From positions 1-21,297 of the IMG/VR virus record IMGVR_UViG_3300042565_000832: DNA of 21,297 bases. One strand, given 5' to 3'. Shown in pieces: positions 5,254 to 12,768 of this stretch (positions are counted from its first letter, which is position 1; the number at the start of each line of letters is the position of its first letter). Under the pieces are notes generated by a model. That model did not search any database. It saw only the letters and a list, made by a program, of their open reading frames with translations, and had not been told where the DNA came from. The position numbers and the translations under genes are program-made. Origin of the DNA: a virus.

Positions 5254-5756
5254 AAAACCTCACAGAAGAAATCGTTCGCATCGCCAAGGCGGAAGTCGGC
5301 GTTCGTGAGGTCGGCAATACAAACTGCGGCGTTCGCGTGAACGAATACAAGGCGGCGACATGGCTGAACCCAAAGAGAGGATGGCCTTGGTGCGCGGCGT
5401 TCGTCTGCTGGGTAATCCGCGAGGCGTTGGCATCCTCCGGCACGAAACAGACAAAGACGTTCAAGCGTCCGAGAACCGCTGGCGCATGGGACTTTGAGAA
5501 CTGGTCTATCGAGCAAGACTCGACAACTTGGATGCGGCGTTCTCCGGGGAAAGACATCATGGCTGGCGACATCGTGGTATTCACCTTCTCCCATATCGGC
5601 ATCGCAATTTCCTCCCCCGACAAGAAGGGCAATGTGACTGTTGCAGAAGGAAATACTGACGACGCTGGATCACGCGAGGGCGGTGGTGTTTATTTAAAAA
5701 AGCGAAACATTTCCCGAATTCGTTCGCGTATTCGATTTAACATTCCGAAACAATAA
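5250..5756 (+). CDS. CHAP-domain endolysin (peptidoglycan hydrolase)
   Basis: The ATG at 5250 (ATGA overlap with the holin-like stop) gives 168 residues; an in-frame TTG at 5244 is less likely. The sequence contains GWPWCAAFVCWVIREAL with the predicted catalytic Cys48, a downstream VVFTFSHIGIAIS with His115, and VAEGNT with Glu133/Asn135 as the third active-site position, all in CHAP/NlpC-type order. The enzyme would cut peptide cross-links or the amide bond of peptidoglycan at the end of infection. No separate cell-wall binding domain or signal peptide is present. The C-terminal 24 residues (YLKKRNISRIRSRIRFNI then PKQ) are basic; a diverged second copy of this end lies at 6183-6239, beyond the HNH gene. 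Confidence 0.87.
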   Translation: MKNLTEEIVRIAKAEVGVREVGNTNCGVRVNEYKAATWLNPKRGWPWCAAFVCWVIREALASSGTKQTKTFKRPRTAGAWDFENWSIEQDSTTWMRRSPGKDIMAGDIVVFTFSHIGIAISSPDKKGNVTVAEGNTDDAGSREGGGVYLKKRNISRIRSRIRFNIPKQ

Positions 5757-6141
5757 CAGCATGAGTCGAACCTTTACTTTTTCTTCTGTTGATTTTTGCA
5801 AGTTCTTCTTTACACTTTTCAGTGTAAAACCTCATTCCTCGATCCCATGCCTCTTGTATATTTTGAGAGTGGTCGCCAACAGAAAGGTGAAGAGGATTTA
5901 CGCATTTTTTATTGTCGCAAGAATGCAATACAAGTTTTCCTTTTGGTATTTCCCCATTGTGAATTTCATAGGAAAATCTATGTGCCTTATGAAGTTTCTC
6001 GCCTCTTCGTCCTTTTTGAAAAACTCCGTAACCCGTTGTTGTCACAGCACCTGTCCAACTCCAGCAAGATTCACCTTTGCAAACCTTATCCCAAAATCTT
6101 TCTTCCGCTGTCTTTCTTAATTTTGCAAGTCCTTTAGCCAT
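5737..6141 (-). CDS. HNH homing endonuclease (HNH_3-like, free-standing)
   Basis: I chose the ATG at 6141 (134 residues) over an upstream TTG at 6174. The protein shows CWSWTGAVTTTGYGVF, then AHRFSYEIHNGEIPKG and LVLHSCDNKKCVNPLHLSVG, which is the usual order of the compact phage HNH family with paired zinc-binding cysteines and the catalytic His in LHSC. It would make a site-specific DNA cut in related phages lacking the gene. It is the only - strand gene inside the + strand block, its base composition is visibly AT-richer than its neighbours, and its 3' end overlaps the endolysin 3' end by 20 nt. All three points indicate an inserted selfish gene. Confidence 0.88.
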   Translation of the reverse strand: MAKGLAKLRKTAEERFWDKVCKGESCWSWTGAVTTTGYGVFQKGRRGEKLHKAHRFSYEIHNGEIPKGKLVLHSCDNKKCVNPLHLSVGDHSQNIQEAWDRGMRFYTEKCKEELAKINRRKSKGSTHAVIVSEC

Positions 6142-6297
6142 GCCGAATATTACCACATATCGGTCGTTGGTCAATACCGAATTACCTCAAAACTCGCAAT
6201 CTTTCCAAGATTCGTTCACGCATCCGATTTAATATTTGAGCAAACAATCGCGCAAAAAAAAGGCTATTCCGTCTAATTTGAGCAACATTACACGCAA
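6142..6297. other. Intergenic region after HNH gene, AT-rich
   Basis: This 156-bp gap is one of the longest in the window. It holds the diverged endolysin 3' remnant (6183-6239), an A8 tract (6254-6261) and two copies of an imperfect 23-bp direct repeat starting ATTTGAGCAA (6234-6256 and 6276-6298, 17 of 23 positions equal). No convincing promoter or Shine-Dalgarno sequence precedes the ATG at 6298. Confidence 0.6.
6183..6239 (+). pseudogene. Remnant: second copy of the endolysin 3' end
   Basis: Read in frame, these bases encode YLKTRNLSKIRSRIRFNI followed by TGA. The endolysin ends YLKKRNISRIRSRIRFNI (5691-5744) plus PKQ. Fifteen of 18 residues are the same, but only 39 of 54 bases match, and most differences are synonymous. 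There is no start codon and nothing endolysin-like upstream of 6183, so this is a 3' fragment cut off from its gene by the HNH insertion. Confidence 0.8.
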
Positions 6298-10485: not shown

Positions 10486-11424
10486 ATGGCTACAATGACC
10501 CTAGCGCAGATCTTCAACACCCTCGGAACCTACGTGGAACCGGGAGGTGACTTCATGGCGAGCTTGAATCAGGTTCTTTCCCGACTTTACGGGATGGGAA
10601 CCTACCGCGACCTCACCGTCCAATACAGCCTGCCCGTTGTGGATGGTGCCGTCACCCTCCCCGACGACGCGGCGGCCGTCCTGCACACGATGGTGGACGG
10701 ATACCCGTCCCCAGTCCGCAGCCTATGGCACGACTTCAAGAGCGTCGGAACCAACTCCCCCGACACGGGACCAACGTGGGGGCTGATCGACTCCGGGTTC
10801 TGGCCAACTACGCGTTTGATCCCGGAATCCGAAACGGTGGACACGCTATTTATTGTCCCATCTCTGCGTGGAGTATCCGCCGTGGACATTGATCTCGAAG
10901 AGGAAATCGTCACGGTGAACGCCAGTGACGGGGACAGGAACTACCAAGGCACTCCGGTGGTAGTTGACCAAGAGATCACCTTTACCGCACCAATCACCAG
11001 CATCACATCCATTTCTTTTGATGCCTTGCTGAGACCCTACGACATCCGCTACGATGCGGCCGACGCGTCCACCTGCATCGCCACGGTGGGTCCGGGTTCC
11101 GGTGTCACTCGCTATCGCAGGTTCCGGGTGAACAAAGCGGTTGACGGAACCACGATCGTTCATGTCCTCTGTAAGCGTGCGTTCATTCCTTTGCAGGCCG
11201 ATGGGGACATTGTCTACGTCACCCACCTAGGCGTTCTCAAGCACGGACTCCTCGCGAGAATCGCGGAGGATAACGCCGACCTTGAGCGTGCACAGTTTCA
11301 TTGGGGGCAGTGCTTCACACTTCTGGAGGAAGATGCCGCTTCCTCGCGTGGTGCTGCTCTTCCTCGTCCGGGGGTTGACCCATACGGCACAGGCAACGTC
11401 GACAAACTCCGTCAAATGTATTGA
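10486..11424 (+). CDS. Putative head-tail / tail tube adaptor protein
   Basis: This 312-residue protein has an N-terminal helical part (TLAQIFNTLGTYVEPGG, then LNQVLSRLYGMGTYRDLTV) followed by strands and loops such as VVDGAVTLPDDAAAVLHTM and PSPVRSLWHDFKSVG. It ends with a long helix (LKHGLLARIAEDNADLERAQ, then HWGQCFTLLEEDAA). A helix-strand-helix layout of this size resembles gp11-like tail tubular A or adaptor proteins of podo- and siphophages, which join the portal to the tail. Similarity is by pattern memory, not measurable here, so the role is tentative. The stop TGA at 11422-11424 precedes the next ATG by 5 nt. Confidence 0.55.
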   Translation: MATMTLAQIFNTLGTYVEPGGDFMASLNQVLSRLYGMGTYRDLTVQYSLPVVDGAVTLPDDAAAVLHTMVDGYPSPVRSLWHDFKSVGTNSPDTGPTWGLIDSGFWPTTRLIPESETVDTLFIVPSLRGVSAVDIDLEEEIVTVNASDGDRNYQGTPVVVDQEITFTAPITSITSISFDALLRPYDIRYDAADASTCIATVGPGSGVTRYRRFRVNKAVDGTTIVHVLCKRAFIPLQADGDIVYVTHLGVLKHGLLARIAEDNADLERAQFHWGQCFTLLEEDAASSRGAALPRPGVDPYGTGNVDKLRQMY

Positions 11425-11429
11425 TCGCC

Positions 11430-11849
11430 ATGGACAGCAAACTAAAGAGCGCAGGGGTTTCCGGTTACAACAAGCCGAAGCGGACACCGAACCATCCAAC
11501 CAAGAGCCACGTTGTCGTAGCCAAGGTGGGTAGCGAAACCAAGACCATCCGATTTGGACAGCAAGGGGTTTCCGGGTCCCCGAAAAAGGAAGGGGAGTCC
11601 AAGTCCGCCGAGCTGCGTCGGGAATCATTCCGCGCACGCCATGCGAAGAACATCGCCAAGGGCAAGATGAGCGCGGCCTATTGGAGTAACCTGACTAAAT
11701 GGGCCATTTTACCTATTGCTCCATTAGATCAAAATGGTAATATCATCCCATGGCTAAAGCAAGACCACTCCCCAATGGCGTCTTATTTGTTGGAATGCGT
11801 GCTAAGAAAAGCGGAGGCTTTGAGTATGCTTTTTCAATCCCTTGCCTGA
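11430..11849 (+). CDS. Basic phage protein (DUF6321-like) with disrupted 3' end
   Basis: I chose the ATG at 11430. Residues 1-91 (KSAGVSGYNKPKRTPNHPTK, VKTIRFGQQGVSGSP-like block, RRESFRARHAKNIAKGKMSA, AYWSNLTKW) resemble a family of ~90-110-residue basic phage proteins that I recall as ending shortly after a ...AAYWANKVKW-type terminus. Here the frame continues for 48 more residues (about 92-139) into sequence unlike that family, and from 11750 it overlaps the HNH gene in another frame by 100 nt. The natural stop therefore seems lost through the HNH insertion. The native protein is probably nucleic-acid or virion associated. Family name and normal end are from memory. Confidence 0.65.
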   Translation: MDSKLKSAGVSGYNKPKRTPNHPTKSHVVVAKVGSETKTIRFGQQGVSGSPKKEGESKSAELRRESFRARHAKNIAKGKMSAAYWSNLTKWAILPIAPLDQNGNIIPWLKQDHSPMASYLLECVLRKAEALSMLFQSLA

Positions 11850-12292
11850 AGTGCAGAAAGGACAGGGTTGTAAAAAGGAGGCAGCACGCAATTTCTATGT
11901 CTAAGAAACCCTGCAAAACGTGCTCGAATAAGGACAACAAACCGGTTGGACTTGTAGGGCAGATCAGGGCCTCCTTTTTCAATAAATTCACCATAGGGGC
12001 GTCCCAAAGAAACAAAATATGGAACATCGACATTTCTTATGCGGCTCAGAAATTCGACGAGCAAGGCGGTGTGTGCGCGTTGTCGGGACTTCAGATTGAC
12101 GCAGGAGGTTCTGGATGCGCCCTTAGTGAGATCACGGCGAGCCTTGATCGGGTAGACAACGCGGTTGGGTATGAGCCCGGTAATGTCCAGTGGGTCCACA
12201 AGGAATTGAATATGATGCGCGGCTCACTAACAGTTGATCGGTTCAAGGAACTGTGTGCATATGTGGCCTCCCACAATAAAGTAAGATGGTGA
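11750..12292 (+). CDS. HNH endonuclease with N-terminal zinc finger
   Basis: This 180-residue protein has a CLKC...CKTC pair (Cys32/35 and 55/58) suited to bind zinc, then CALSGLQID (from Cys109), ASLDRVDNAVGYEPGNVQWV, HKELNMMRG (His150, Asn154) and a final helix. That order matches phage HNH nucleases whose core reads SLDRID-x-GY-x-NVQWVHK-x-N-M. It starts inside the tail of the upstream gene and its last 7 nt overlap the next ATG. It belongs to a different HNH subfamily from the gene at 5737-6141. A free-standing homing endonuclease is the best reading; the final residues NKVRW may be the displaced end of the interrupted neighbour. Confidence 0.87.
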   Translation: MAKARPLPNGVLFVGMRAKKSGGFEYAFSIPCLKCRKDRVVKRRQHAISMSKKPCKTCSNKDNKPVGLVGQIRASFFNKFTIGASQRNKIWNIDISYAAQKFDEQGGVCALSGLQIDAGGSGCALSEITASLDRVDNAVGYEPGNVQWVHKELNMMRGSLTVDRFKELCAYVASHNKVRW

Positions 12293-12768
12293 TCCTCCGG
12301 ACAACACTCGAAGAGCGGCGTTTTGTTACCAGCACAGTGAAAAGGTTGACGGGCGTGCGCGGCTGTGACCTGTATCTGATAGGGGGTGTCGCTACCCAAC
12401 GCCACATCGGGGGGACGCTGGAAACCCCAAAGACGCCCGCAAAATTTAGCAGGATCTCTGGGGTCTATGGCCTGAACGTATTTGTTTTTACGGCAAAAAC
12501 AATAGAGCCAGAAGTGCAGCCGCACCACACCGCACGCGTCTATACCGACAATCCGGACGATCCGGCGTTTCGCGGAGCCGACATTTTCTATTTCACCAGA
12601 AGCAGCAGGGATATGACGGTGGTGACTTTGGTGGGATGGACAACCCCCTCACAATTTTTCAGTGAGGCGGTGTTCAATCCGGTGGGAGCCACCGACCCCC
12701 ACGGGGGCTACACCTGCCCCCGTGACGAGTTCTCGCTTCCGGTCAATCTTCTGATCCCTCCGGACTGA
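12286..12768 (+). CDS. Protein of unknown function (possible degenerate nuclease-like fold)
   Basis: This 160-residue protein starts with an ATG overlapping the HNH stop region by 7 nt. Its second half (DIFYFTRSSRDMTVVTLVGW, then SEAVFNPV and a YTCPRDEFSLPVNLLIPP end) recalls small phage proteins with a PD-(D/E)XK-like core in which a 'fvlvvG...vvGWi' pair and a 'y.vp...L.P' end recur. The expected catalytic D...(D/E)xK residues are not clear in the first half, so if related it may be inactive. It ends 26 nt inside the convergent - strand gene. Treat function as unknown. Confidence 0.55.
   Translation: MVILRTTLEERRFVTSTVKRLTGVRGCDLYLIGGVATQRHIGGTLETPKTPAKFSRISGVYGLNVFVFTAKTIEPEVQPHHTARVYTDNPDDPAFRGADIFYFTRSSRDMTVVTLVGWTTPSQFFSEAVFNPVGATDPHGGYTCPRDEFSLPVNLLIPPD

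Follow-up and report, generated by a model that had tools for sequence, protein, structure and literature searches.

A putative HNH homing element at the end of its presumed target gene in a phage, with an altered copy of that gene end

The window analysed here, the whole 21,297-nt stretch of a virus record, very probably contains an HNH homing element that inserted in its own target, a conserved gene for a small basic protein, and that carries an altered, probably cleavage-resistant replacement for the end of this gene. Judged by its sequence features, the window is a member, albeit an atypical one, of a class of loci with this arrangement. Comparisons among these loci give good support to a mechanism of homing in which the element brings a rewritten gene end. 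A DNA search for the window among named phages gave no near match.

The target gene is located on the plus strand at 11430..11849 and matches PHROG 7595 (profile E 3e-38). Its native-length part (11430-11702, 91 aa) ends in LTKW; the gene reads ...GKMSAAYWSNLTKW, with TGG at 11700-11702, and the protein reads AYWSNLTKW up to 11702. As the sequence-only reading had stated, the frame continues past LTKW without a stop for 48 codons (11703-11846, stop 11847-11849), and the neighbouring HNH ORF ends SHNKVRW-stop. The run-on overlaps this ORF (11750..12292, plus strand) in a different frame. The ORF encodes an HNH/PacI-like endonuclease of 180 aa, as assigned from PHROG profiles, the AlphaFold2 model and a structure match. 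Two copies of the gene end are present. The left copy, AGTAACCTGACTAAATGG (SNLTKW), defined against HNH-free siblings, occupies 11685..11702, and the right copy, AATAAAGTAAGATGGTGA (NKVRW-stop), occupies 12275..12292 and is the HNH C-terminus. The plus-strand insert of 587 nt (11703..12289), with ATGG at each edge, starts with a 47-nt leader 5′ of the HNH start (11703..11749). The next gene (12286..12768, plus strand) begins with an ATG that overlaps the TGGTGA of the right copy, and its start overlaps the gene end likewise in the HNH-free siblings.

Three sibling contigs, L108 and L109 (~ 90% DNA identity) and L110 (87%), have no HNH gene and lack the insert. Their gene end reads GCCAAC(C/T)TGACTAAATGG-TGATC (ANLTKW-stop), and this stop overlaps the start of the gene that follows. 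Because the siblings end in this way, the left LTKW of the window is native-like, the insertion point is TGG|TGA, and the empty site defines the insert as the 587 nt between the Trp codon and the stop. The siblings match the left copy, from which they differ by one codon (GCC to AGT in the window, Ala-to-Ser), and their LTKW differs from the window tail NKVRW. LT at positions -4/-3 is confined, among HNH-free genes, to the siblings of the window (2/210). In consequence, the join of 11690 to 12278 proposed in the sequence-only reading does not give this lineage its own end, ANLTKW-stop. The suggestion that the HNH gene captured the end of its host gene holds for the class, as the pair L368/L465 below illustrates; in the window itself two copies of the end are present, but the tail NKVRW is not the LTKW of the siblings. 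The target gene is not split by the HNH gene, as had been suggested, because the insert supplies a replacement end.

The window HNH matches the profiles of PHROG 3322 (6e-18) and PHROG 1035, and all 62 of the 62 aligned relatives match the same PHROG endonuclease families. Its sequence contains a CxxC...CxxC pair and a SLDRVD...GYEPGNVQ motif, and residues C109, S131, D133, R134, N145 and N154 are invariant in the HNH alignment. The AlphaFold2 model has a mean pLDDT of 92.3, with lower confidence over the last ten residues, tail included (mean 76). Among solved structures the best match was PacI (Foldseek E 0.008; Z 8.5, rmsd 3.0 over 98 residues), a Z that is near chance level for models without clear matches, and PacI and most of the lower-ranked structures are HNH enzymes. 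The profile matches of the 62 relatives, the PacI match and the invariant residues identify an HNH/ββα nuclease domain. An Endo VII-type (DHHRN) assignment was rejected, since the DHDH core is absent and SLDR[IV]D stands in its place, despite the PHROG endonuclease VII profile matches. Sequence searches of solved structures with the HNH and the target gene returned nothing convincing, and the target-gene model, of modest confidence (73), had no fold match.

The arrangement recurs well beyond the window. We scanned for family genes without a stop after KW and, separately, with the HNH family as the seed. A window-type HNH gene lay directly 3′ of the PHROG 7595 gene in 73 nonredundant cases, and 49/73 ended flush in W-stop, versus 0/21 related HNH genes elsewhere (p=8e-9). 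After two more scans the count at this site was 54/83, so that the W-stop end is not a chance feature. The flush tails are mostly a second copy of the last codons of the PHROG 7595 gene, and even odd gene ends are mirrored in the HNH tail (CNWSW in L357, DMAKW in L337). The gene-seeded scans found the HNH in 6/213 genes. The carriers are metagenomic contigs throughout, and no isolates were found among them.

The leader deserves separate mention. In the window it includes a gene-end-like string, AAAATGGTAA, at 11731-11740, and such strings were also seen in L008, L227, L228, L385, L372, L417 and L428. The pattern A[AG]TGGT[AG] occurs in the leader of 20/83 carriers versus 1.7 expected by shuffling and 7 in an internal control. 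It may represent an older copy of the gene end; alternatively, it may act as an operator in self-repression.

Several other extensions of the target gene were seen. The likeness among run-on peptides (TIVPIG...) was considered as a conserved peptide and rejected, because it stems from the conserved DNA of the HNH leader and start, read here in another frame. A subfamily of the target gene (L162, L165, L166, L171 and others) carries ~ 16 extra residues, SPSKTKSPSKKWKKGS, without an HNH gene, and some genes are longer by one residue and end KWS; both extensions were set aside as variants independent of the HNH. HNH-free genes also run on past KW in L178 (about position 335, 6 residues) and in L161 (about 5616, minus strand, 24 residues), and these are possibly remnants of older insertions.

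Comparison with HNH-free relatives indicated which of the two copies is native. The carrier L368 and the HNH-free L465 are 100% identical over the gene body and 99% downstream. The native end of L465, GCTGATAAAATTAAATGGTGATC, is intact at the HNH C-terminus of L368, whose own gene ends GCCAACCGCGAAAAGTGG; the right copy is identical to the native end at 15/15 positions, versus 6/15 for the left copy. The pairs L363/L489, L176/L566, L483/L470, L409/L445 and L582/L537 agree with this. For 33 carriers there was an HNH-free relative with ≥ 75% identity; its gene end was closer to the right copy in 25 and to the left copy in 6 (p=7e-4). Moreover, in comparisons within single loci it is the right copy that retains the Lys and Val of the family, by 22 to 1 for K(-4) and 24 to 3 for V(-3). 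A carrier's own left and right copies showed weak identity in an 18-nt scan alone; it was the comparison of both with HNH-free relatives that was informative.

The left copy is changed systematically. The family end named in the sequence-only reading proved right on comparison of homologues: A[DN]KVKW-stop ends 80% of 203 nonredundant HNH-free genes versus 5% of 83 carriers (163/203 versus 0/5 in the gene-seeded scans alone), a difference to which lineage could contribute because carriers and HNH-free genes came from different seeds, and pairs matched on the gene body, which reduce this effect, had lost the native end in the carrier 49 times and in the reverse direction 0 times. Ser at codon -6 rises from 2% in HNH-free genes to 48% in carriers, and AAG at codon -4 falls from 54% to 6%. 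Codon divergence peaks at -6, -4 and -3 (z 13.2, 8.9 and 5.7) and is low over -25 to -9. Ser at -6 was found in 71% of carriers that keep the stop after KW versus 33% of run-on carriers, a set found partly by a pattern requiring no stop, and this is consistent with the run-on itself belonging to the change at the left end.

The unit has moved between diverged backbones. Between L388 and L386, the 530-nt unit that begins with the left copy and ends with the right copy is 100% identical. Identity is lower around it, at 96-92% in the gene body and 63% upstream, and downstream it declines from 93% to 86%. L415/L414 display a similar pattern. In L395/L397 the HNH genes are 96% identical and the flanks match poorly. 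The horizontal transfer in L388/L386 and L415/L414, together with the use of one site for which HNH-free alleles exist in the empty-site pairs, is the behaviour expected of a homing element.

We propose that the element is a free-standing HNH homing element aimed at the conserved 3′ end of the PHROG 7595 gene. The ancestral event would have been an insertion near AYW|ADKVKW-stop. The 5′ edge of the element would bring its own altered copy of the last six codons, so that the gene keeps a working end, and a short leader and the HNH gene would follow. The displaced native end and its stop would then become the HNH C-terminus, in frame or not. We infer that the HNH enzyme cuts this gene-end site and that the changes in the left copy prevent cutting, for which the systematic alteration of this copy is indirect evidence; the carrier would be protected despite its complete gene end because the altered copy is presumably no longer a good cleavage site. 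The target gene probably stays functional in carriers. In spreading, HNH-free alleles would be cut and repaired from the carrier, with left copy, leader, HNH and right copy copied as a unit. The window would have the element at this site, and its tail NKVRW would have arrived with the element.

Other explanations of the tail were weighed against this proposal. Taken alone, with its native-like left end and ATGG at both edges, the window could hold an ordinary free-standing HNH gene that entered between Trp and stop via ATGG microhomology and ends NKVRW by chance. We consider this very improbable and, on the comparative evidence, strongly disfavoured: the tail recurs in 54/83 genes at this site and in 0/21 elsewhere, it equals the native end in L368/L465, and it follows the odd ends of L357 and L337. 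The frequent in-frame position of the tail would suit an endonuclease that retains it because it needs these residues, but we judge such a need improbable. A gene-end string is found out of frame near the HNH stop (≤ 45 nt from it) in 11/29 carriers without a flush tail, and near the HNH stop in 14/34 genes of a second HNH family, and confidence in the HNH model is lowest at the tail end. Because the string also occurs out of frame, the HNH tail is repeated gene-end DNA and not a protein domain. More possible, if still doubtful, is that the main reason for keeping the right copy is to provide portable homology at the 3′ recombination junction, given that downstream genes differ among phages. 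The right copy does end where flank identity drops; however, the string is lost or decayed in several carriers. Such a role is compatible with our proposal and could be a further advantage of the right copy.

The remaining alternative, raised in the sequence-only reading as splicing or as two alternative ends, is a self-splicing intron or recoding that links the gene to its second end. Arithmetically, the join yields YWSN-KVRW-stop at family length. Nevertheless, no part of the window matched an Rfam intron family at the gathering threshold, the matches obtained for 11400-12400 with permissive settings were at chance level only, and 17 further carrier loci contained no Rfam intron family; no group I or II catalytic RNA core was thus found in the window. 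The HNH ORF takes up all but 47 nt of the 587-nt insert, and across the class the inserts measure 455-688 nt and are nearly all ORF. In group I introns, U ends the 5′ exon and G ends the intron. By our reading of the sequence, the shared 4-nt ATGG at the insert edges offers no group I-compatible junction position. We must also note that a stop directly follows the left KW in ~ 40% of carriers (34/83), so the gene is complete there without any join. We regard an intron or recoding as hardly credible.

The pair L370/L044 is a case similar to the window. L370 (HNH) and L044 (HNH-free) are 99% identical, and the HNH-free member shares the left copy and not the right. The gene in L044 ends in an altered form, SDRTKW; the sequence after it, GAAATAAATGG, is similar to the worn right copy of L370. 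The match of siblings to the left copy, in the window as in L370/L044, is consistent with element loss, and also with the native end having stayed where it was at insertion. The siblings of the window, whose ends resemble altered left copies, are probably ex-carriers. In the simplest reading, these siblings and L044 would have lost the element by deletion between the short repeats and retained the altered end. L044 compared with L370 is a possible candidate for a loss scar and a resistant allele.

An unrelated HNH of the GHYEPGNVRWAT type was found at the same gene end in 35 genes (L179, L186, L202, L203, L211, L217, L326, L339 and others among the 35 loci). It has the same two-copy layout, mostly with a run-on (by selection), and the left end is less altered. 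A gene-end string near the HNH stop was present in 15/35 versus none in the internal control; in the genes without a flush tail the string is out of frame (14/34), and the HNH stop is often formed within the out-of-frame right copy. Elsewhere in the window (5737-6174, minus strand), a different HNH (Pfam HNH_3, E 7e-10) abuts the end of the endolysin gene, which is on the other strand. In our view it is an evenly balanced question whether phages carry widespread natural recoded-rescue homing elements, in which two unrelated HNH families would sit at the end of one conserved gene, replaced by an altered copy, and in which loss would leave the altered end as a resistant allele, with the siblings of the window and L044 as scars.

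The closest known architecture is that of fungal mitochondrial gene hybrids, atp6 of Allomyces macrogynus and atp6, atp9, cox2 and nad3 of Glomus sp., in which an endonuclease ORF brings a foreign C-terminus and the native one is displaced (PMC3630166). As there, our ORF lies near the 3′ end of a conserved gene with a divergent replacement C-terminus, and the native C-terminus, displaced downstream, matches an insert-free relative (PMC3630166). This order, with the replacement end upstream and the displaced native end downstream of the ORF, was found for the class in L368/L465 and others. The fungal hybrids are mitochondrial, with long C-terminal pieces and enzymes of the LAGLIDADG or GIY-YIG type (PMC3630166), whereas here the enzyme is an HNH in phages, about six codons are involved, and the displaced end is usually the C-terminus of the endonuclease itself. 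Intronless homing in T4-like phages likewise employs promoterless free-standing endonuclease genes that overlap their neighbours (PMC2988022). In T4, the free-standing enzymes cleave at a distance of hundreds to thousands of bp from the gene that encodes them (PMC2988022), whereas the present gene is located in the presumed target itself and comes with a replacement end. F-CphI, Endo VII-type (DHHRN) and PacI-like HNH enzymes share the CxxC pairs and ββα-type nuclease domain (PMC6083498; PMC12724721), and the window HNH matches endonuclease VII by PHROG and PacI by structure. Self-protection of F-CphI depends on an intron at the target (PMC6083498; PMC12724721), while here the rewritten exon end is the presumed protection. 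HomeR, an engineered home-and-rescue drive, sits in the 3′ end of an essential gene and supplies that gene with a re-coded end; it resembles our element in this position and in its re-coded codons downstream of the cut (PMC7968924). HomeR is engineered, Cas9-based and operates in flies, in contrast to a natural phage element with some amino-acid as well as synonymous changes. Our literature search, with most subscription journals outside its scope, found no report of this architecture in phages.

If true, this would provide a natural phage precedent, in many independent copies, for the design of home-and-rescue drives, whose principle is to target the 3′ end of a conserved gene and to carry a rewritten end. 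The carrier/empty pairs show which bases change, and so indicate the recognition site without biochemistry. For annotation, the C-terminal end of the HNH and the run-on of the target gene should be taken as by-products of insertion, and not as a fusion or splice form. Finally, the possible loss scars would make the gain-loss cycle of a homing element readable in phage populations.
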